From Candidatus Magnetocorallium paracelense (GTDB lineage Bacteria; Nitrospirota; Thermodesulfovibrionia; Thermodesulfovibrionales; Magnetobacteriaceae), in NCBI GenBank assembly GCA_029001845.1, contig JAREWP010000043.1, positions 1-64,000 on the forward strand: a DNA stretch of 64,000 nt, read 5' to 3'. The position numbers and the translations under genes were made by a program. How positions within the stretch are numbered: position 1 is the first letter of the stretch; each line of letters opens with the position of its first letter. The notes under the pieces were generated by a model, which was not told the DNA's origin, ran no database searches, and saw only the letters and a list, made by a program, of their open reading frames with translations. Below are positions 4,621 to 24,598 of the stretch, one piece after another.

Positions 4621-4791
4621 GATCAATTCATAACAAAAACAGAAAGTCAAAAAGAACTTTAGGGTCAACCGGAAATTTTAAAAAAGTTGTATTTTTACAT
4701 CAGTTATGTTATATTTCAAACCAATCGAAACTATTATATAATTATACCAGACAGTGAGCTGTTGCAAAAAAAATCAAAGGAGACAATTCTT

Positions 4792-5646
4792 ATGACAAAA
4801 AAATTTTTGGCTCTAATCATCACAATACCGGTTATCTGCTTCCTCACATTAAGTTCATACGGCGCAGAAACCAAAACCGCGGTAACAAAGACCATTGACC
4901 TGTCAGGCGTCCCTGTAGACACTGCTGCTTCCGCCGACGGCAAATATCTCTTTGTTCTGACAAACAAAGGCGAAGTCAATATCTATACCGCAGACGGTAA
5001 ACTGAAGGACTCTGTCAAAATCGATTCCTCCGCCGACATTATCAGTGCTTCTCCCGACGGTTCTACAATATATCTGACGGACCGGGAAAAGCATACGACT
5101 CAGGTCGTGTCTATTGACTTTGTCTACGATTTCGATTTATCGAACTCACCAATAAAGGGTAAAAAAGACGCCCCTGTAGCTGTCGCTATTTTCAGCGATT
5201 TCCAGTGACCTTACTGCGCCAGGGCAGTGCCCTTACTTGAGCAGTTGCTCAAGAATAATCCCGATAACGTAAAAATAGTCTTTAAAAATTTCCCGCTGAG
5301 AATGCACAAATTCGCCTTTCCCACTGCAATTGCCGCCATGGCGGCCCACAGGCAGGGAAAGTTCTGGGAATATCATGACCTGGTTTTCGAAAACTACAAA
5401 AAGCTCAATGAAGAAAAGTTGGTCGAACTTGCAAAGCAGGTCGGACTGAATATGGACCAATTCGCTAAGGACAGGAAAGACAGAAAACTGGCTCACCAGA
5501 TACAGTCCGACATGAATGAAGGCATGAAGGCCGGTGTACGAGGGACTCCGACAATGTTTATAAACGGAAGTCGTCTGAAAGTCCGTGATCCGCAGGGTAT
5601 ACAAAAGGTGATAGAAAAAGAACTGCAAAGCTTAAAAGGTAAATAG
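4792..5646 (+). CDS. secreted DsbA-like thioredoxin-fold protein with a candidate selenocysteine (UGA 5206-5208)
   Basis: From the ATG at 4792 (AAAGGAG upstream) the frame encodes a signal peptide (MTKKFLALIITIPVICFLTL). A propeller-like stretch follows (VDTAASADGKYLFVLTNKG, IISASPDGSTIYLTD), then VAIFSDFQ-UGA-PYCARA. The frame continues intact after the UGA for 146 codons through a DsbA alpha domain, including the cis-proline loop RGTPTMFING and a normal C-terminus. UGA stands exactly where the first Cys of FSDFQCPYC would be, so the active site would read Sec-Pro-Tyr-Cys (residue 139 of 284). A hairpin fitting a bacterial SECIS follows. DsbA-family proteins handle periplasmic disulfides; Sec versions are known in some anaerobes. 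The alternative is a nonsense mutation or sequencing error. No sel genes lie in the window. Confidence 0.8.
5209..5253 (+). promoter_or_regulatory. candidate bacterial SECIS hairpin(s) downstream of the UGA codon
   Basis: AGGGC-AGU-GCCCU (5221-5233) forms a GC-rich stem whose G-containing apical loop lies 18-20 bases after the UGA, within the spacing known for SelB-binding bacterial SECIS elements. The flanking CUGC (5214-5217) and GCAG (5241-5244) can extend the stem. A second perfect 7-bp hairpin, CUUGAGC-AGUU-GCUCAAG, lies at 5236-5253. Which hairpin would act is inferred by eye, with no folding calculation. Confidence 0.5.
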
Positions 5647-5685: not shown

Positions 5686-5757
5686 TAACCACGAAGAACA
5701 CGAAGGTCACGAAGTTTTTAAGAATGTTCTTCTTGCCCGACCTGAACTTCGTGGTTA
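5686..5757. repeat. AACCACGAAG...CTTCGTGGTT palindromic intergenic repeat
   Basis: AACCACGAAGAACACGAAGG on the left is answered by AACTTCGTGGTTA on the right. The same sequence type recurs at about 40507-40572, and a related ACCACAGATTACACAGAT/CTGTGTCATTGTGGT pair lies near 18650-18700. Confidence 0.6.
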
Positions 5758-5822
5758 TTGAAATTAAGCCCTTTTGAGTCTATTTTGAGACAAATAATTC
5801 TAAAAACTGACAGGTAACGAAA

Positions 5823-6438: not shown

Positions 6439-6468
6439 TTGAAAAAAACAACTTCTTTTTGTTATGAT
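6439..6468 (+). promoter_or_regulatory. probable sigma70 promoter of the sugar operon
   Basis: TTGAAA (6439-6444) and TATGAT (6463-6468) are each one base from consensus, with an 18-base spacer. The start of transcription would be near 6475, about 25 bases before the ATG at 6501. Confidence 0.45.
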
Positions 6469-6500
6469 TGCTATTCGTATTTTTGAATGAAGGAGAGAGG

Positions 6501-7205
6501 ATGAAGGTATCTTTAATATTACCAACTTATAACGAAGTCGAAGGGATGAAGGCTATCATGCCTGAAATAGATAAATCCTGGTATGATGAGCTGATCATAG
6601 TGGATGGCGGCTCAACGGACGGTACGATAGAATATGCTCAGGAAAAGGGGTACCCCATCTTCGTACAAAAAAAGAAAGGACTCAGACAGGGACTGATGGA
6701 GGCCTGTGAAAAGGCAACCGGCGATATAATTATCGAATTCAGTCCTGACGGTAACTCCATAGCCGAAAAGATTCCTCCCCTTATCGAAAAGATGAAGGAA
6801 GGTTACGATATGGTAATCGTTTCCAGATACGCCGACGGCGCCAAGAGTTATGACGACGATGTAATAACCTCTTTTGGCAACTGGATGTTTACGAACCTGA
6901 TTAATCTCGTACACGGAGCCCACTACACTGATGCAATGGTTATGTTCAGGGCCTTTAAAAAAGATATTATAAAAACCCTTGATCTCGATAATGACGTTCA
7001 TTATTCCTATGTAGAGAGGTTGTTTTTCACCAAAATCAGCTGGGAGCCTCTGTTGTCTGTAAGATGCGCCAAGAAGAAGCTTAAGTATACTGAAATACCG
7101 GGTGACGAACCGCCCAGAATAGGCGGTGAGAGGAAACTACAGATCGTCCGCTGGGGAAGCGCTTATCTTACACAAGTACTGAGAGAGAAAGTTTATTGGC
7201 AATAA
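6501..7205 (+). CDS. GT2-family glycosyltransferase, DPM1-like
   Basis: The 234-residue protein begins SLILPTYNEVEGMKAIM and has LIIVDGGSTDGTIEYAQEKG, the nucleotide-sugar-binding strand of GT-A family 2 enzymes. An acidic PDGN at about residue 86 replaces the usual DxD metal motif. Lack of C-terminal membrane helices and its length fit the soluble dolichyl/polyprenyl-phosphate sugar synthase type, which loads a sugar from GDP or UDP onto a lipid carrier. The ATG at 6501 has AAGGAGAGAGG just upstream. It is the first gene of a tightly spaced operon of sugar-nucleotide enzymes. The sugar donor is not known; the downstream HddA/HddC-like genes suggest a GDP-linked sugar. Confidence 0.8.
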   Translation: MKVSLILPTYNEVEGMKAIMPEIDKSWYDELIIVDGGSTDGTIEYAQEKGYPIFVQKKKGLRQGLMEACEKATGDIIIEFSPDGNSIAEKIPPLIEKMKEGYDMVIVSRYADGAKSYDDDVITSFGNWMFTNLINLVHGAHYTDAMVMFRAFKKDIIKTLDLDNDVHYSYVERLFFTKISWEPLLSVRCAKKKLKYTEIPGDEPPRIGGERKLQIVRWGSAYLTQVLREKVYWQ

Positions 7206-7238
7206 AAGAATTATTATCTCTAACAGGAAACATCTATC

Positions 7239-8195
7239 ATGAAAGAACTTAAAGAAAAGATACTTATTACCGGAGGCTCCGGCTATATAGGCTCTACTCT
7301 GATTCCATGGCTACTTGACGAAGGATATGCCGTAACTGCCGTTGACAACCTTATGTACAATCAGGCCACATTAATGGATTACTGTCATAGAGGCAATTTC
7401 GATTTTATCAGGGGAGATGCAAGGGATGAGGGACTGATAAAGGAGCTTTTAAAAAATGCCGACATAGTGATTCCGCTGGCCTGTCTCACTGGAGCGCCAC
7501 TTTGCGAGAGAGACCCCTGGGCTGCCGAAAGTGTTATGGTGGACGCCATAAATTTACTCCTGAAAAACAGGAGCAGCGACCAGCTTATGCTCTATCCGAA
7601 TACAAACAGCGGTTACGGCATTGGCGAAGAAGGCAAATACTGCACCGAGGAGTCGCCGCTCAGGCCTGTTTCACTTTATGGCAGACTAAAAGTAGAGGCT
7701 GAGAACAGGATACTTGATTCAGGCAATTGCGTCTCCTTCAGGCTGGCAACGGTATTCGGGGCTGCGCAGCGAATGCGTATCGACCTCCTGGTAAACGATT
7801 TTGTCTACCGCGCCGTTACAGACAGGTTCGTAGTACTCTTTCAGGCAGAGGCCAAACGAAATTACATACATATCAGAGATGTTGTCAAAGGATTCATACA
7901 CGCCCTCAATAATTGGGACACCATGAAAAATAACACTTACAACATGGGACTATCGGACGCCAATCTCTCTAAAAGAGAACTTTGTGAAAAAATCAGGAAC
8001 TTTATACCGGAATTCTACTTTACGATCGCAGAGATCGGAGAAGACCCGGACAAAAGGGATTATATAGTAAGCAACGAAAAGATAGAGTCTACCGGCTACT
8101 GCCCCTCCTTTTCTCTCGATGACGGAATAAAAGAGCTTATAAAAGTCTACAAAATTTTAAAACTGAAGAGGAACGATTTTACCAACAACCCCTGA
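7239..8195 (+). CDS. NAD-dependent sugar epimerase/dehydratase (SDR)
   Basis: The 318-residue extended SDR has the Rossmann motif ITGGSGYIGSTL at its N-terminus, PNTNSGYG in the central active-site strand and the catalytic pair in SLYGRLKVEAE (YxxxK near residue 147). It most resembles UDP-glucose 4-epimerase/dTDP-glucose dehydratase relatives. FRLATVFGAAQRMRIDLLVNDF is the substrate-loop region typical of these enzymes. It lies 33 bases after the glycosyltransferase and 5 bases before the radical SAM gene. The exact reaction cannot be assigned from sequence. Confidence 0.8.
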   Translation: MKELKEKILITGGSGYIGSTLIPWLLDEGYAVTAVDNLMYNQATLMDYCHRGNFDFIRGDARDEGLIKELLKNADIVIPLACLTGAPLCERDPWAAESVMVDAINLLLKNRSSDQLMLYPNTNSGYGIGEEGKYCTEESPLRPVSLYGRLKVEAENRILDSGNCVSFRLATVFGAAQRMRIDLLVNDFVYRAVTDRFVVLFQAEAKRNYIHIRDVVKGFIHALNNWDTMKNNTYNMGLSDANLSKRELCEKIRNFIPEFYFTIAEIGEDPDKRDYIVSNEKIESTGYCPSFSLDDGIKELIKVYKILKLKRNDFTNNP

Positions 8196-8200
8196 TTATC

Positions 8201-9685
8201 ATGGCGGTAGACGTCTTATTCATACATCCGGGCAACCAAAAAAAGACATACCAGGACCTCTCTAAAGAATACACAGCAATAGCCACCCCTGTATGGGCCG
8301 CCCTAATCGCCGATTATCTGCGTAACAGAGATATCGATACAGCCATATTCGATGTAAATATCGAAGGGTGGGATGAAAACGATCCTCAGGCAATTGCATC
8401 GAGCTACGATCCGGATCTTATCGTATTGATGGTTTACGGCCATAATCCTTCCGCCTCTACCCAGACCATGCCCGCCGCCGGTCGAATAGCAAGGGATATA
8501 AAGAAATACAACAGAGACATACCGGTTGCAATGGGAGGGATTCATCCTTCGGCGCTTCCTGAAAAGACTCTGCAAGAGGAAGAGATAGATTTCGTTATTC
8601 AGGGAGAAGGCCCTTATACGGTGTACGATCTGATAAACGCCTTAAAAGGTAAATCCGATCTTAAAGACGCTCGCGGACTCTGGTACCTTAAAGAGGGATT
8701 ACCCTCTTTTTCGACTCCTGCCCCGAATATATCGAATCTCGATGATGAACTTGGCAGTTACGCCTGGGACCTTTTGCCTTCATTGACCAAATACAGAGCG
8801 CACAATATGCATTGTTTTCAGGATTTTTATAAAAGCGAGACAGAGGACTTTTCGGACATCCGCTCTCCCTATGTCTCTATGAACACATCGCTCGGTTGCC
8901 CCTATTCGTGCAGCTACTGTTGTATAAACGCCATATTTGGTAAGCCGCGAATCAATTACTGGTCACTCGATACTGTCATGACCTGGATGGATACTCTTTA
9001 TAATGAATACGGTGTAAAAAATGTACGATTCGATGACGAACTTTTTATACTATCCTCTGAGAGAGTGGAGAAATTTTGTAATATGATTATCGACAGAGGT
9101 TATGACATGAACTTCTGGGTATACGGACGTGTGGATACAATAAAGGACTCCCTCTTAAAGAAGATGAAAAAAGCAGGTATCAACTGGATATGTCTGGGTA
9201 TCGAATCGGGTAATGAAAATGTAAGAGAGGGAGTCAATAAAAAAATTAAAAAAGACATTAAAGAGGTAGTGTCGGAAATTCAGGCAAACGGCATTTATGT
9301 ACTTGGCAATTATATGTTCGGTCTTCCTGACGACGATCTCCATACAATGGAAGAGACTCTGAAGCTGGCCATGGAATTGAATTGCGAGTACGCCAATTTT
9401 TATACGGTTATGGCCTATCCGGGATCGCAGCTTTACAATCAGGCCGCAAAGCGTCCCGACTGCCTGCCGCCAAACTGGGGAGGTTATTCTCAGCTAAGCT
9501 ATGAAACCATGCCGCTGCCCACGAAAAACACCTCCGCCGGAGAGGTGCTCAGGTTCAGGGATGAAGCCTTTTACAGGTATCACACAAACCCGGTCTATTT
9601 AAGTATGATAGAGGAGAAATTCGGTGCTCCTGTCAGAAGACATATCGAAAAGATGCTGGATGTAAAAATAAAAAGAAAATTATAA
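8201..9685 (+). CDS. cobalamin-binding radical SAM protein
   Basis: The 494-residue protein has an N-terminal B12-binding Rossmann domain (VLFIHPGNQKK, LIVLMVYGHNPSAS, VAMGGIHPSALPEKTL) and a radical SAM core with the cluster motif GCPYSCSYCCINAIFG (CxxxCxxC) near residue 235. NWICLGIESGNENVREGVNK and YVLGNYMFGLPDDDLHTMEE are typical of the family. Class B enzymes of this form methylate or rearrange unactivated carbons; some lack methyltransferase activity. Its place between two sugar epimerases suggests it modifies a sugar, or the lipid that carries it. The substrate is unknown. Confidence 0.85.
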   Translation: MAVDVLFIHPGNQKKTYQDLSKEYTAIATPVWAALIADYLRNRDIDTAIFDVNIEGWDENDPQAIASSYDPDLIVLMVYGHNPSASTQTMPAAGRIARDIKKYNRDIPVAMGGIHPSALPEKTLQEEEIDFVIQGEGPYTVYDLINALKGKSDLKDARGLWYLKEGLPSFSTPAPNISNLDDELGSYAWDLLPSLTKYRAHNMHCFQDFYKSETEDFSDIRSPYVSMNTSLGCPYSCSYCCINAIFGKPRINYWSLDTVMTWMDTLYNEYGVKNVRFDDELFILSSERVEKFCNMIIDRGYDMNFWVYGRVDTIKDSLLKKMKKAGINWICLGIESGNENVREGVNKKIKKDIKEVVSEIQANGIYVLGNYMFGLPDDDLHTMEETLKLAMELNCEYANFYTVMAYPGSQLYNQAAKRPDCLPPNWGGYSQLSYETMPLPTKNTSAGEVLRFRDEAFYRYHTNPVYLSMIEEKFGAPVRRHIEKMLDVKIKRKL

Positions 9686-9696
9686 GTCGTTACAAA

Positions 9697-10593
9697 TTGA
9701 AAATATTAATAACATATCCCGATTCTTTCCCTGGCGTCTTTTTAAAGAAGAGCTTAGAAAACTCTTATGAGATTATAGACAAAAAGACAGATTATGAAGA
9801 CATTGAGGCGGTCAGAAAAATACTTGCAGAGACCTCGCCGGATGTGATAATTCTCAATGTACCCTTTAGCGGCGGTATACAACTGAATATCGAGCGACCT
9901 GCTTTACTGATTACAAAAAACACGACTGCTCAGTTGAATACAATCGTCTGCGCTTTTGAACATGAGATCGGGAAGTTATTTTTTATTGGCAGTTCTTGTA
10001 TGTATCCGCGTAATTTCAATGAAAGCATGTCAGAGAAAGACCTCTTTTCCGGCCCCCTTGAAGAGACAAACCTGGCATACGCCACTTCAAAAATATCGGG
10101 TTGGCAGTTGTGTAAGGCATACAATAAAGAGCACGGAACGAAGTACAGGACTCTTATACCTGCCAATCTCTTTGGCGAACATGACGACTTCAGCGTTGAA
10201 AACGCTCATGTCATAGGAGCACTGCTTAACAGATTTCACAAAGCAAAAAAAGAAGACAGGAAGGTGGTTACTGTCTGGGGTACGGGAGAGCCGGTGAGGG
10301 ATTTTCTCTATGCCGGAGATTTCGCCGATGCCGTACGCTTCTGCCTGGAACAAGACCTCTCTTGGGAAGAGATGAACATCGGGTCCGGCAGGGGGCATTC
10401 AATAAAGGAACTTGTAGAGATAATTGCGGAAATTGTCGACTACAGGGGAGAAATAAAATATGATACAACAAAGCCTGACGGAATGAAGGTTAAGGTATTG
10501 AATTCGGAGAGGATCAATCAGGCAGGGTGGAGTCCGACAACCTCACTGAAAGAATCGATGGAAAAGACATATGAATGGTATAAAGGGAGATAA
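9697..10593 (+). CDS. GDP-fucose-synthase-like SDR epimerase/reductase
   Basis: The 298-residue protein lacks a clean GxxGxxG N-terminus (it begins LKILITYPDSFPGVFLKKSL). It matches the GDP-4-keto-6-deoxymannose epimerase-reductase (Fcl/WcaG) pattern through IGSSCMYPRNFNESMSEKDL, GPLEETNLAYATSKISGW (YxxxK), RTLIPANLFGEHDDF, HVIGALLNRFHKAK and VWGTGEPVRDFLYAGDFADA. Fcl enzymes epimerise C3/C5 and reduce C4 of a GDP-4-keto sugar. With HddA/HddC next door, a modified GDP-heptose is a plausible substrate. The start is TTG 9697 with a weak ribosome site; the degenerate nucleotide-binding loop is a real oddity. Confidence 0.75.
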   Translation: MKILITYPDSFPGVFLKKSLENSYEIIDKKTDYEDIEAVRKILAETSPDVIILNVPFSGGIQLNIERPALLITKNTTAQLNTIVCAFEHEIGKLFFIGSSCMYPRNFNESMSEKDLFSGPLEETNLAYATSKISGWQLCKAYNKEHGTKYRTLIPANLFGEHDDFSVENAHVIGALLNRFHKAKKEDRKVVTVWGTGEPVRDFLYAGDFADAVRFCLEQDLSWEEMNIGSGRGHSIKELVEIIAEIVDYRGEIKYDTTKPDGMKVKVLNSERINQAGWSPTTSLKESMEKTYEWYKGR

Positions 10594-10676
10594 AGGGGGG
10601 TAATGGTTGGCTGTTTTCGGTTTACAGTCAGGAAAACTTTATAAGCCTTAACTCACGATGGGCAACATTTTTTATT

Positions 10677-11696
10677 ATGATTATTAGTAAAACACCTTTT
10701 CGAGTATCCTTTTTTGGCGGAGGAACGGATTATCCTGTGTGGTTTCATGAAAACGGCGGGGCCGCGCTCTCGACGACGATAGATAAATATTGTTACATCA
10801 GCTGCCGCTACCTTCCGCCTTTTTTCGACTACAGGCACAGAATCGTCTACTCCAAGACCGAACAGATTACTGAAATTGACGATATCGATCATCCCGCTGT
10901 CAGGGAGGTCTTCCGCTTCATGGATCTCAAAAGGGGAGTTGAAATACATCACGACGGTGACCTCCCTGCCAGAACCGGCCTTGGGTCCAGTTCATCTTTC
11001 ACTGTAGGTTTGTTGCATACCCTTTATGCCTTAAATGGGAGAATGGTGACAAAGGATCAACTTGCAAAAGAGGCTATTTATGTAGAGCAGGGAATGATTA
11101 AGGAAAATGTCGGTTCCCAGGACCAGATAGCAGCCGCATTCGGAGGATTCAATAAAATAATCTTTCACAGAGACGGATCGTTTAGTGTGAATCCGCTCTT
11201 TCTGACGAATAATAAATTAAAAGAACTTCAGGATCATCTGATGCTTTTTTTCACCGGTTTTTCCAGAAACGCCTCTGATATCGCCGGAGAGCAGATAAAA
11301 AAGACGCCTCTCAAAAAAAGGGAGCTTCACAGAATGCATGAAATGGTTGATCAGGCCATATCCATTTTGGGAAACGATAATACCGATATTTGCGATTTCG
11401 GCAGGCTTTTGCACGAATCATGGACAATTAAACGGGGCTTGACAGATCGTATAACCACTTCCCATATCGATGAAATATATGAAGCCGCTTACAGCGCCGG
11501 TGCATTGGGAGGGAAACTATTGGGCGCCGGAGGCGGAGGGTTTATGGTGATATTTGCTAAACCTGAAAACCAGGACCTTATTAAAGAGAAATTAAGCGAC
11601 CTCCTCCTTGTACCTTTTCAGTTCGAGACATCGGGTAGCCAAATCATTATCTACCAACCGAATCTGTCATATTGTATCGATGACTACTGTACCTGA
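10677..11696 (+). CDS. GHMP-family sugar kinase, HddA-like (heptose 7-phosphate kinase)
   Basis: The 339-residue protein opens ISKTPFRVSFFGGGTDYPVW, the characteristic N-terminus of D-glycero-D-manno-heptose 7-phosphate kinase and related sugar kinases. It has the ATP loop LPARTGLGSSSSFTVGLL near residue 100 and the GHMP C-terminal motif LGGKLLGAGGGGFMVIF. HddA phosphorylates C1 of heptose 7-phosphate in the GDP-heptose route used for S-layer and capsule glycans. The next gene is the matching nucleotidyltransferase and overlaps by 17 bases. L-fucose kinase-type relatives share these motifs, so the sugar is an inference. Confidence 0.8.
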   Translation: MIISKTPFRVSFFGGGTDYPVWFHENGGAALSTTIDKYCYISCRYLPPFFDYRHRIVYSKTEQITEIDDIDHPAVREVFRFMDLKRGVEIHHDGDLPARTGLGSSSSFTVGLLHTLYALNGRMVTKDQLAKEAIYVEQGMIKENVGSQDQIAAAFGGFNKIIFHRDGSFSVNPLFLTNNKLKELQDHLMLFFTGFSRNASDIAGEQIKKTPLKKRELHRMHEMVDQAISILGNDNTDICDFGRLLHESWTIKRGLTDRITTSHIDEIYEAAYSAGALGGKLLGAGGGGFMVIFAKPENQDLIKEKLSDLLLVPFQFETSGSQIIIYQPNLSYCIDDYCT

Positions 11697-12402
11697 ACCT
11701 GAAGAAACGGACGTTTTAATTTTGTGCGGAGGCAGAGGCGTCAGACTCCAATCGATAGTCAATGACAGACCAAAGCCCATGGCCGATATTAACGCCCGTC
11801 CCTTCCTCGATATTCTGATCGAAAACATCGCCTCCTTTGGGTTTAAGAGATTTATCCTCTGCGCCGGTTATAAGGCCGACTATATTGAGAAATATTACAA
11901 AAACAGAGAATCCTCTCTTTCTATAATAATATCCAAAGAAGATATCCCCATGGGAACTGCCGGCGCTTTGAAACAGGCAGAGCAATTTATAGGGAGTAAT
12001 ATTTTCCTGGCAATGAACGGTGACTCCTTCTGCTCCGTCGATTACAAAGATTTTTTAGACTTTCATGTCAATACAATGCACCCTCTCTCAATAGCTCTTG
12101 TCCCAAGCGATGAGAACAGCAAGGACTATGGTCTTGTAACTCTGGACAAAAATCGATTTATCACAAGCTTTAGCGAAAAGGCTGCAACGAAAGGAACAGG
12201 ATATATTAACGGAGGTATATACTTTTTTCAAAAAAAGATACTCCAATATATTCCCGCCGGCAGGGAGTATTCCCTGGAAAAAGAGTTATTCCCGAAAATG
12301 ATTGAAAAAGGCGTCAGCGGATATGTTACAAAGGGGAAATTTATAGATATTGGTACTCCTGAACGTTATGAGTACTCAAAGGTTTATTTAGAAGGTATAT
12401 AA
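11680..12402 (+). CDS. sugar-1-phosphate nucleotidyltransferase, HddC-like
   Basis: The 240-residue protein has VLILCGGRGVRLQSIVNDRPKPMADINARPFLD at its N-terminus, the GGxGxRL and KPM signature of nucleotidyltransferases. LAMNGDSFCSVDYKDFLDFH supplies the metal-binding Asp. HddC transfers GMP to D-glycero-alpha-D-manno-heptose 1-phosphate. I place the start at ATG 11680, giving the standard N-terminus; a longer in-frame start at 11608 lies deep inside the kinase gene. It is the last gene of the operon. The nucleotide (GTP or CTP) is not fixed by sequence alone. Confidence 0.8.
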   Translation: MTTVPEPEETDVLILCGGRGVRLQSIVNDRPKPMADINARPFLDILIENIASFGFKRFILCAGYKADYIEKYYKNRESSLSIIISKEDIPMGTAGALKQAEQFIGSNIFLAMNGDSFCSVDYKDFLDFHVNTMHPLSIALVPSDENSKDYGLVTLDKNRFITSFSEKAATKGTGYINGGIYFFQKKILQYIPAGREYSLEKELFPKMIEKGVSGYVTKGKFIDIGTPERYEYSKVYLEGI

Positions 12403-22171: not shown

Positions 22172-23242
22172 ATGATATTCATTCAGGGATTGGATTTTTT
22201 CAATAAGTGGTTAACTTCTCAAAAGGATTTTACCGATAACTGGATAGAAGGAATGACCAAAATGCAGTCTGCTTTCATGCCAGGCGGAAAAACCTCAAAA
22301 GAGTCCGCCAATGAAGCTGTCAACACTTATAACTCATGGATCAAAACCATAGGTATTTTTTTTGACGAGCCTTTCAAAAAATACCCTCTTGGTAAGGGGA
22401 GTACTATATTCGAGAAGATTACCGAGCCATCCGATTTATACTCTAAACTGAATGATCTTACGGCCTCGCTTTTTAAGGCCGTACAGGATAAATCTCAAGA
22501 TTTTAAAAAATTTATGGATATCGCTCACTCAGAGGAATATAAGGCGATTATAGATAAATTATTCGACTTTGCCTCTCCTGATGTAATGTCTGACTTTTAC
22601 AGCCAAACATTAAAAATCGCAGAAAACAGGATGTCTTCGTCGAAAAATTTCCTGACACCATGGGCAGAGGCAATACAAAAGAATACCGAGGCGATTCCCT
22701 ACCTGATGACAGGAAATCCTGCGGTAGGTTTGAGTATCTTTCAAAATATATACAACGCCTTTGAGTCCACTATGACAATGGCCTTTCAAAGGGACGCCAA
22801 TGGAGAGGAGAGAGATAAGTTCGCACTGATCGTAAAAACTCTTGAAAAAAACGCTGAATTTTTAACTAAGAACACCGAGTTCCAGAAAAGTATATACCAG
22901 ACAGCACAAAAAGCCTTTGAAAAAGTTTTGGAATCTTTAAACAAAAAAGTAAGTGAGGGAACACAAGTGAATGATGGCGGAGAATTGCTCTCCCTTTGGA
23001 AAGATATAAACATAAGTGAGTTCGATACTCTCTTTTCATCGAAGGATTTTTCCGGAATTCAGACTGCTCTGCTTGAGATGGTCCTTGATACGAGGAAGCA
23101 TTTTCAGAAGTTTATGGAGACCATTGCAGAGGATTTTCAAGGCAGTGAGAACAAGTTAATGGATGACGTCTATGCTTCCATTAAAGAGATGGGCGCAAGA
23201 GTTTCAGAGATAGAAAAAAGATTCTGCAAAAATCCGGTCTGA
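22172..23242 (+). CDS. phaE: PhaE-like subunit of class III polyhydroxyalkanoate synthase
   Basis: The 356-residue protein opens FFNKWLTSQKDFTDNWIEGM, has repeated amphipathic helices and contains FASPDVMSDFYSQTLKIAEN and TEAIPYLMTGNPAVGLSIFQ. It ends in a coiled coil (DDVYASIKEMGARVSEIEKR), as in the PhaE family (about 350 residues). PhaE activates PhaC in making PHA storage polymer. The ATG at 22172 has AAAAGGAG upstream. No phaC, phaA/B or phasin is present in the window, which is unusual, so the catalytic partner must lie elsewhere. The assignment rests on overall pattern rather than a catalytic motif. Confidence 0.65.
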   Translation: MIFIQGLDFFNKWLTSQKDFTDNWIEGMTKMQSAFMPGGKTSKESANEAVNTYNSWIKTIGIFFDEPFKKYPLGKGSTIFEKITEPSDLYSKLNDLTASLFKAVQDKSQDFKKFMDIAHSEEYKAIIDKLFDFASPDVMSDFYSQTLKIAENRMSSSKNFLTPWAEAIQKNTEAIPYLMTGNPAVGLSIFQNIYNAFESTMTMAFQRDANGEERDKFALIVKTLEKNAEFLTKNTEFQKSIYQTAQKAFEKVLESLNKKVSEGTQVNDGGELLSLWKDINISEFDTLFSSKDFSGIQTALLEMVLDTRKHFQKFMETIAEDFQGSENKLMDDVYASIKEMGARVSEIEKRFCKNPV

Positions 23243-23275
23243 GCCTGCAAGGCCGGAATCAAACAGGCTTTTAAA
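23240..23275 (+). terminator. possible intrinsic terminator after phaE
   Basis: AGCCTG at 23242 pairs with CAGGCTTTT near 23264, a 6-bp stem with a long loop and a short T-run. It lies directly after the phaE stop. Confidence 0.35.
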
Positions 23276-23314
23276 ACCGCAGATTTCACAGACAAAATTT
23301 CACTTCAATTATAT

Positions 23315-24598
23315 ATGGATAAATGGGACATTGATCTGGCATGTAAAAAAATATTGAATTTTTCTTCTCTTTCTTCAAAAAACCGTGATAATCTGCTGAA
23401 ATACTTAGATATTTTCTTTCCGCCATCAAAGTATTACAAACATGCCGCCTTACGAAGAAATGCCATAAAAAACCTTCGATTGAGCAGGAATCTGCTTACA
23501 GGTGCAATCCAATTGTTTCCTCATTGCCTACAAGTTAATGATCTGCCCGCTTCCGGTTCCAGCCTTAGCGGATACGCTGTTATGTTGACGGCAGGCGGTG
23601 AAGGTGAACGTCTCAGGATCAGTCTTCAACAAAATGGAATAAAGGCTGATCAATTAAAGGACTTCACTAAAGCGACATATAAACTACCTGATTTTTATGC
23701 GGATTATGGCGCTTTACATATAAACCTTTCTCTGATATCTAATATCTCAATGGAGAATGAGATCGATATACCGGTAATCGTAACAACCGGCCCTCCAAAA
23801 TCAACTACAGCAAAGATAATACCACGTATTATCAAAGAGAATAAAAGCTTTGGTCTAAAGAATATCAGGGTTATTCAACAAAATGAGCGTCTTCATTTGA
23901 CTGAGGATGAGAAAATAGTTTATACATTTAAATACGATTCACCGGAGCCGGTTATCAATCCTGACGAAACAGGAGGCCCTGTAATGAAATTAAAGGAGGT
24001 TATGGAAACCGGAGAGACTGCCTTAAGCTGGCTGAAAAGATCAGGCTGTGATAAAATCATATTACTCCAGGCAACTGCGATTTATGACAAGGAGCTTATT
24101 CTAAAAATGGCAAGAGCCGGAAAAGCATACGACGGTGTTGGCGTTGGTATCATGAGAGAATCATTCCATTCTGATGATCCATATGGCACATATGTGCTGG
24201 TTGAAAAAGAGGAGAGTAAAAAACTTATAATTGTTGAAAAAGAGACGCGTAACGAGGCGACACGGAATCTCAGGGATCCAAACAATGTTTTTTATCTCCC
24301 CTTTAATACAGGATTATATATATTTGACCGTGCTTTAATAGAAAATAATCACCTTCCTGACTATGCCACTCCGCCAAAAGAAATACTTCCGAATCTCCCA
24401 AGATCACCAAAAATCGGATATGCAGCAACAGACATACTTCCATTTGCTTCATATCCTGCTATTTTAGCGGCGCCATCTGATTCATTTCGTGTCATAAAAA
24501 AGGCAGATGATTTGAAAGACCTTTCAATACTTGGTAAAAAGCTCGGTCTTAACAAAATATGTAAAGAAGTCAGGGAATATACAGATAGTTATAAATAA
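23315..24598 (+). CDS. UDPGP-family-like nucleotidyltransferase
   Basis: The 427-residue protein carries VMLTAGGEGERLRISL near residue 90, the nucleotide-binding loop of UDP-sugar pyrophosphorylases. KIILLQATAIYDKELILKMA and VGIMRESFHSDDPYGTYVLV correspond to the central sheet, followed by LPFNTGLYIFDRALIENNHL and KIGYAATDILPF in the C-terminal part. These enzymes join UTP and a sugar 1-phosphate. It is closer in form to the large eukaryote-like UDPGP type than to bacterial GalU. The gene stands alone between two repeat copies. The sugar specificity is unknown and the family match is by eye. Confidence 0.6.
   Translation: MDKWDIDLACKKILNFSSLSSKNRDNLLKYLDIFFPPSKYYKHAALRRNAIKNLRLSRNLLTGAIQLFPHCLQVNDLPASGSSLSGYAVMLTAGGEGERLRISLQQNGIKADQLKDFTKATYKLPDFYADYGALHINLSLISNISMENEIDIPVIVTTGPPKSTTAKIIPRIIKENKSFGLKNIRVIQQNERLHLTEDEKIVYTFKYDSPEPVINPDETGGPVMKLKEVMETGETALSWLKRSGCDKIILLQATAIYDKELILKMARAGKAYDGVGVGIMRESFHSDDPYGTYVLVEKEESKKLIIVEKETRNEATRNLRDPNNVFYLPFNTGLYIFDRALIENNHLPDYATPPKEILPNLPRSPKIGYAATDILPFASYPAILAAPSDSFRVIKKADDLKDLSILGKKLGLNKICKEVREYTDSYK

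Follow-up and report, generated by a model that had tools for sequence, protein, structure and literature searches.

A DsbA-like protein of Candidatus Magnetocorallium paracelense with a probable active-site selenocysteine and a predicted two-blade N-terminal module

The gene at positions 4792..5646 (+) of the window, the 64,000-nucleotide stretch of Candidatus Magnetocorallium paracelense DNA analysed here, very probably encodes a selenoprotein of 284 residues, in which the UGA at codon 139 is read as selenocysteine (Sec) and the TAG at 5644-5646 ends the frame. A ribosome-binding site, AAAGGAG (4776..4782, +), was read directly from the sequence 9 nt upstream of the ATG. The single in-frame stop of the ORF is the TGA at 5206-5208 (+), in the context SDFQ-U-PYCAR, and it opens the (U/C)PYC active site, in which Cys142 (5215-5217, +) is the partner of Sec139. 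The earlier note had placed the only interruption of the frame at the first Cys position of a CPYC motif, with which both the frame and the alignment of homologues agree. The 145 codons that follow the UGA carry Pfam matches to DSBA and Thioredoxin_4, which bears out the claim of a DsbA fold behind this codon. The Thioredoxin_4 match (residues 119-276, 2e-26) crosses the UGA and reaches 93.6 bits when the codon is read through, compared with 64.8 bits for the downstream part alone. The mechanical ORF listing splits the gene into two fragments, as had been foreseen for ORF calling in general, and such genes are therefore likely to be mis-annotated.

Among 51 homologues with the same architecture, the window gene counted, the site is UGA in 32 and TGC or TGT in 19; one of the two search patterns demanded a Cys codon and so biased the collection toward Cys members, and for this reason 32:19 should not be taken as the ratio in the population. 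In each of the five closest homologues (41-47% identity, among 199 relatives), a single TGA falls at this site in the alignment, and all five have the N-terminal module in common; further homologues, mostly from Desulfobacterota, came from a wider genome collection. All of them run on past the site via UGA, TGC or TGT and none stops there, so that the comparison proposed in the earlier note, namely whether Cys replaces UGA or relatives end at this point, came out on the side of a selenoprotein, with Cys in the 19 members mentioned above. In the pair of UGA members L082 and L090, the segment after the UGA shows a dN of 0.053 against a dS of 0.81, which indicates that the region 3' of the UGA is under purifying selection at the protein level. 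On this comparative evidence, decoding of the UGA at 5206-5208 as Sec is predicted with near certainty.

An in-frame stop codon could also stem from a sequencing or assembly error or from a nonsense mutation in a pseudogene, and the presence of the stop is itself what such an explanation has in its favour. UGA is found at the same codon in 31 other full-architecture homologues from many genomes, which makes a sequencing error not credible, and the purifying selection that persists past the UGA, together with the complete Sec machinery described below, leaves this explanation very improbable. A genome-wide reassignment of UGA, for example to Trp, is even harder to sustain, and we give it practically no weight: 14 of the 51 ORFs of the window end in TGA, that of this gene included, the 13 others (at least 130 aa) nearly all meet a second stop soon after, and the relatives show Cys at the site, never Trp. 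A long open frame after the TGA was found in just one of these 13 ORFs, where it is the next tandem gene. This locus (22172-24598) was considered as a further candidate and rejected, being two tandem genes and not a selenoprotein; it consists of a PHA synthase III subunit E-like gene, a TGA, and then an in-frame gene without a Pfam match.

The genome (6.0 Mb, 99.6% complete) holds the full set of genes for which the earlier note had recommended a search, with matches to selA (613 bits), selB (363 bits), and selD (338 bits), and a tRNA-Sec (selC; 74.6 bits) with the anticodon UCA as given by ARAGORN. The selD gene (G000:C50:17721-18650, L048) has its own in-frame TGA at the active site, TCG-U-AAK, and we take it to be the known selenoprotein form of SelD; it thus serves as an internal control that the cell decodes UGA as Sec. 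Across the family, selA is present in 28 of the 30 genomes of Sec members, and both exceptions are MAGs (those of L056 and L066), in which a full selA was not found and incompleteness is plausible. Among the genomes of Cys members, selA is present in 15 of 19 and absent from 4.

A GC-rich hairpin with its loop 18-20 bases 3' of the UGA had been proposed in the earlier note as a bacterial SECIS. The hairpin itself is there as described, a candidate SECIS with the core AGGGC-AGU-GCCCU (5221..5233, +) and a loop at +18 to +20 after the UGA; its fit to a bacterial SECIS is strong at the level of the family and weak in this gene alone, where the hairpin does not differ significantly from synonymous recodings (fraction 0.092). 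The register of its stem is off by one from that of most relatives, and no Rfam match was found in the window. In the Sec members, the segment from +6 to +30 has a mean z of -2.41 against synonymous shuffles, with 23 of 32 members at 0.05 or better, whereas the Cys members have a mean z of -0.66, with 2 of 19 at this level. The contrast in hairpin stability between Sec and Cys members gives p 2.5e-6 in a test that ignores relatedness; among phylogenetically independent, supported Sec/Cys pairs, about 6 of 8 agree and none oppose it, with a median p of 0.03. A wobble G at +21 occurs in all 31 Sec members scored and in 5 of 18 Cys members. The stems differ among clades and lie in nearby registers, and it is the stem that separates the two groups, since the rule of a G within the first two loop bases gives no separation (6/32 vs 4/19) and not every member of the family has a G at one fixed position of the loop. 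L082 and L084 are a close pair, 87-92% identical in protein, and yet carry Sec and Cys, respectively: both sides of the stem are altered in L084 (GGC to AGC and TCG to GCA), and the hairpin is broken where Cys replaces Sec.

On a maximum-likelihood tree calculated with the site masked, 14 changes between Sec and Cys are required, and the well-supported branches force at least 9 of them. Recurrent Sec/Cys evolution is an established theme, as a survey of sequenced bacteria sets out (PMC1794560). In the present family, Sec and Cys have thus replaced one another repeatedly at the catalytic site; that the RNA signal was switched along with the residue is part of a more tentative reading, which also includes the intermolecular propeller discussed below. 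The family offers a good natural experiment on what selenium gains a periplasmic disulfide enzyme, and it also suits the question of how a SECIS within a coding sequence is gained or lost. The AU test rejects a clade made up of only the window gene and the Nitrospirota members (p 7.7e-7) and does not reject a wider grouping (p 0.45), and hence we make no claim of horizontal transfer. A search of 18 genomes of the window's own family gave nothing beyond a weak partial match to the gene, which is accordingly sporadic. Several variants were met along the way. In the UGA members L054 and L063 the motif reads URYC and ULYC instead of UPYC, an unusual change directly after Sec. A shorter exported DsbA-like protein without the propeller module has its UGA in UPHC (L034-L047 and other loci); numerous genomes in the order and class carry it, and it appears to be widespread in the group. 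Another short variant, FSCFQ/E-U-PAC, was seen in Desulfobacterota (L099, L100, and L101), with an extra Cys three residues before Sec.

The protein begins with a predicted signal peptide (residues 1 to ~25; 4792..4866, +), which ends in ...LSSYGA before E according to its sequence pattern and appears as a lone helix (residues 2-18) in the AlphaFold model. This model, calculated from a 41-member alignment, has a mean pLDDT of 94.5 and a pTM of 0.83. The N-terminal module (4867..5133, +), delimited by profile and model secondary structure, comprises an outer strand, d0 (residues ~29-37), and two YVTN-type blades, which agrees with the propeller-like N-terminal domain that the earlier note had described. 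In the model, blade 1 consists of four strands (residues 41-76) and blade 2 of three (residues 83-107), the fourth, outer strand being missing, and the DsbA-like domain starts at residue 121. That domain (5146..5643, +) matches Thioredoxin_4 (PF13462, 93.6 bits) and DSBA (PF01323, 82.7 bits, 3.9e-23), both above the curated cut-off, and also has fold matches to ScsC, BdbD, and DsbA; its nearest relatives by fold are 3gyk, BdbD, Corynebacterium DsbA, ScsC, and Wolbachia DsbA2. The cis-Pro of the GTPT motif, P253 (5548..5550, +), is invariant in the 41 members, and T252 directly before it is nearly so.

When compared with the YVTN propeller of the surface-layer protein 1l0q, the N-terminal profile aligns (E-value 7.7e-25) in such a way that strand d comes first and two blades follow; the blades are alike in sequence and in the order of their strands, and residues 29-37 correspond to an outer strand d, which is unpaired in the monomer model. 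In YVTN propellers at least four blades close the ring within one chain, whereas the model here shows two blades with 4 + 3 strands; with the second blade lacking its outer strand, a single chain would be unable to close a ring. In a closed propeller, the outer strand d completes the last blade, so closure between molecules would be the natural reading of a module that begins with such a strand. A solved propeller, 6r5z, is composed of three identical three-bladed fragments. By analogy and from the monomer model, oligomerisation through the blades is a serious possibility that falls just short of probable. A more specific arrangement, in which d0 of one protomer fills blade 2 of its neighbour to give a ring, for instance a six-bladed trimer, bearing several Sec-containing DsbA domains, is possible but rather doubtful when taken jointly with the repeated Sec/Cys switching. 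If true, the protein would be an oligomeric selenium-dependent protein foldase built via an intermolecular propeller.

With respect to function, neither DsbB (PF02600) nor VKOR (PF07884) gave a profile match in the 99.6% complete genome, which has two proteins with DsbD_TM, that is, reductant carriers of the DsbD/CcdA type, and encodes, in addition, a DsbC of the Cys type that carries DsbC_N. As a matter of general chemistry, reduction and isomerisation are favoured when the attacking group is a selenolate. The threonine ahead of the cis-Pro, which has been described for ScsC, and the fold matches to the trimeric ScsC isomerases point the same way. These three points, the lack of DsbB and VKOR matches, the two DsbD_TM proteins, and Sec at the attacking position, lead us to favour, with some reserve, a periplasmic disulfide reductase or isomerase over an oxidase. 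SelA, SelB, SelD, and tRNA-Sec would insert Sec at the UGA, aided by the downstream hairpin, and the protein would then be exported to the periplasm. There, the selenolate of U139 would attack substrate disulfides and Cys142 would resolve the mixed selenenylsulfide, while a membrane carrier of the CcdA/DsbD type most likely keeps the enzyme reduced, which would make it act as a disulfide reductase or isomerase. Its two-blade module may well serve to oligomerise it, as DsbC_N does in DsbC and the N-terminal helices do in ScsC.

The same selenoprotein could instead work as a dithiol oxidase of the DsbA/BdbD type, recharged by a quinone or cytochrome partner. The DSBA and Thioredoxin_4 matches are compatible with this, and BdbD, an oxidase, ranks second in closeness among the solved relatives, in sequence as in fold; the lack of DsbB and VKOR matches, the two DsbD_TM carriers, and the chemistry of the selenolate, all set out above, speak against it, and although another oxidant than DsbB or VKOR could exist in the genome, we regard an oxidase as distinctly the less likely function. 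A different proposal concerns the UGA itself, which might act as a switch, so that when selenium is scarce translation terminates and the exported two-blade module is released with a role of its own. A ribosome that stops at the UGA would already have translated the N-terminal module together with the opening strands of the catalytic domain, and the option is necessarily open to all Sec members. However, no stop interrupts the 19 Cys members at this point, which shows that the family can function without the truncated form, and the truncated product would end after residue 138, inside the catalytic domain, with a stray strand. Such a switch is thus improbable.

As for the genomic surroundings, a PhoH-like ATPase gene lies directly 3' of the homologue in 21 loci (within L056-L092, mostly Desulfobulbales), in some cases overlapping it. 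No PhoH-like gene follows the window gene in this way, and synteny suggests no partner for it. Just 3' of the gene, an imperfect inverted repeat (5689-5760; accacgaagaacacgaaggtcacgaag ... cttcgtggtt) resembles a dispersed repeat element. Farther on, at 6468-12402, genes for nucleotide-sugar, glycosyltransferase, and B12-binding radical SAM proteins resemble a polysaccharide biosynthesis cluster.

DsbA-like selenoproteins with a UxxC motif (PF01323) have been described from the Sargasso Sea in 2005 (PMC1088965), figure in the 2006 survey of sequenced bacteria cited above (PMC1794560), and were listed as "DsbA 1" in the Global Ocean Sampling study of 2008 (PMC2398784); a 2026 review tabulates a "DsbA-like protein form 1" and a "DsbG-like" UxxC protein, NF041057 (PMC13188914). 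The DsbA fold, the Sec at the first position of UxxC, and the downstream bacterial SECIS are all alike in those proteins and in the one predicted here. The nearest named NCBIfam model, the Rcas_1661 family thioredoxin-like (seleno)lipoprotein NF041057, matches 41 of 41 aligned members, but the window protein, at 76.9 bits, stays far below the cut-off of 190 bits, with a match confined to the catalytic domain, and no lipobox Cys is seen in its signal peptide, unlike in the NF041057 lipoproteins. Among the papers searched, none described a DsbA-type selenoprotein with a YVTN or other beta-propeller module like the two-blade one predicted here. In the case of DsbC and DsbG, which join an N-terminal module to a CPYC/CGYC catalytic domain and have DsbD as reductive partner, the domain layout is alike; the DsbC_N domain (PF10411) was found neither in the window protein nor in any of the 41 members, and the DsbG model matches the window protein only weakly. 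The ScsC proteins of Proteus mirabilis and Caulobacter crescentus form trimers, act as disulfide isomerases, and have a DsbA-like catalytic domain; their activity depends on an N-terminal oligomerisation region, and their partner is a DsbD-like carrier (PMC8900818, PMC5524982). They share with the window protein the DsbA-like fold, the Thr-cis-Pro, and an extra N-terminal module, but this module is made of helices and the active site has Cys in ScsC, in place of the predicted beta-blades and Sec of the window protein. In comparison with these systems, the catalytic selenoprotein type is known, the N-terminal module is apparently undescribed, and the switching between Sec and Cys is unusually clear.
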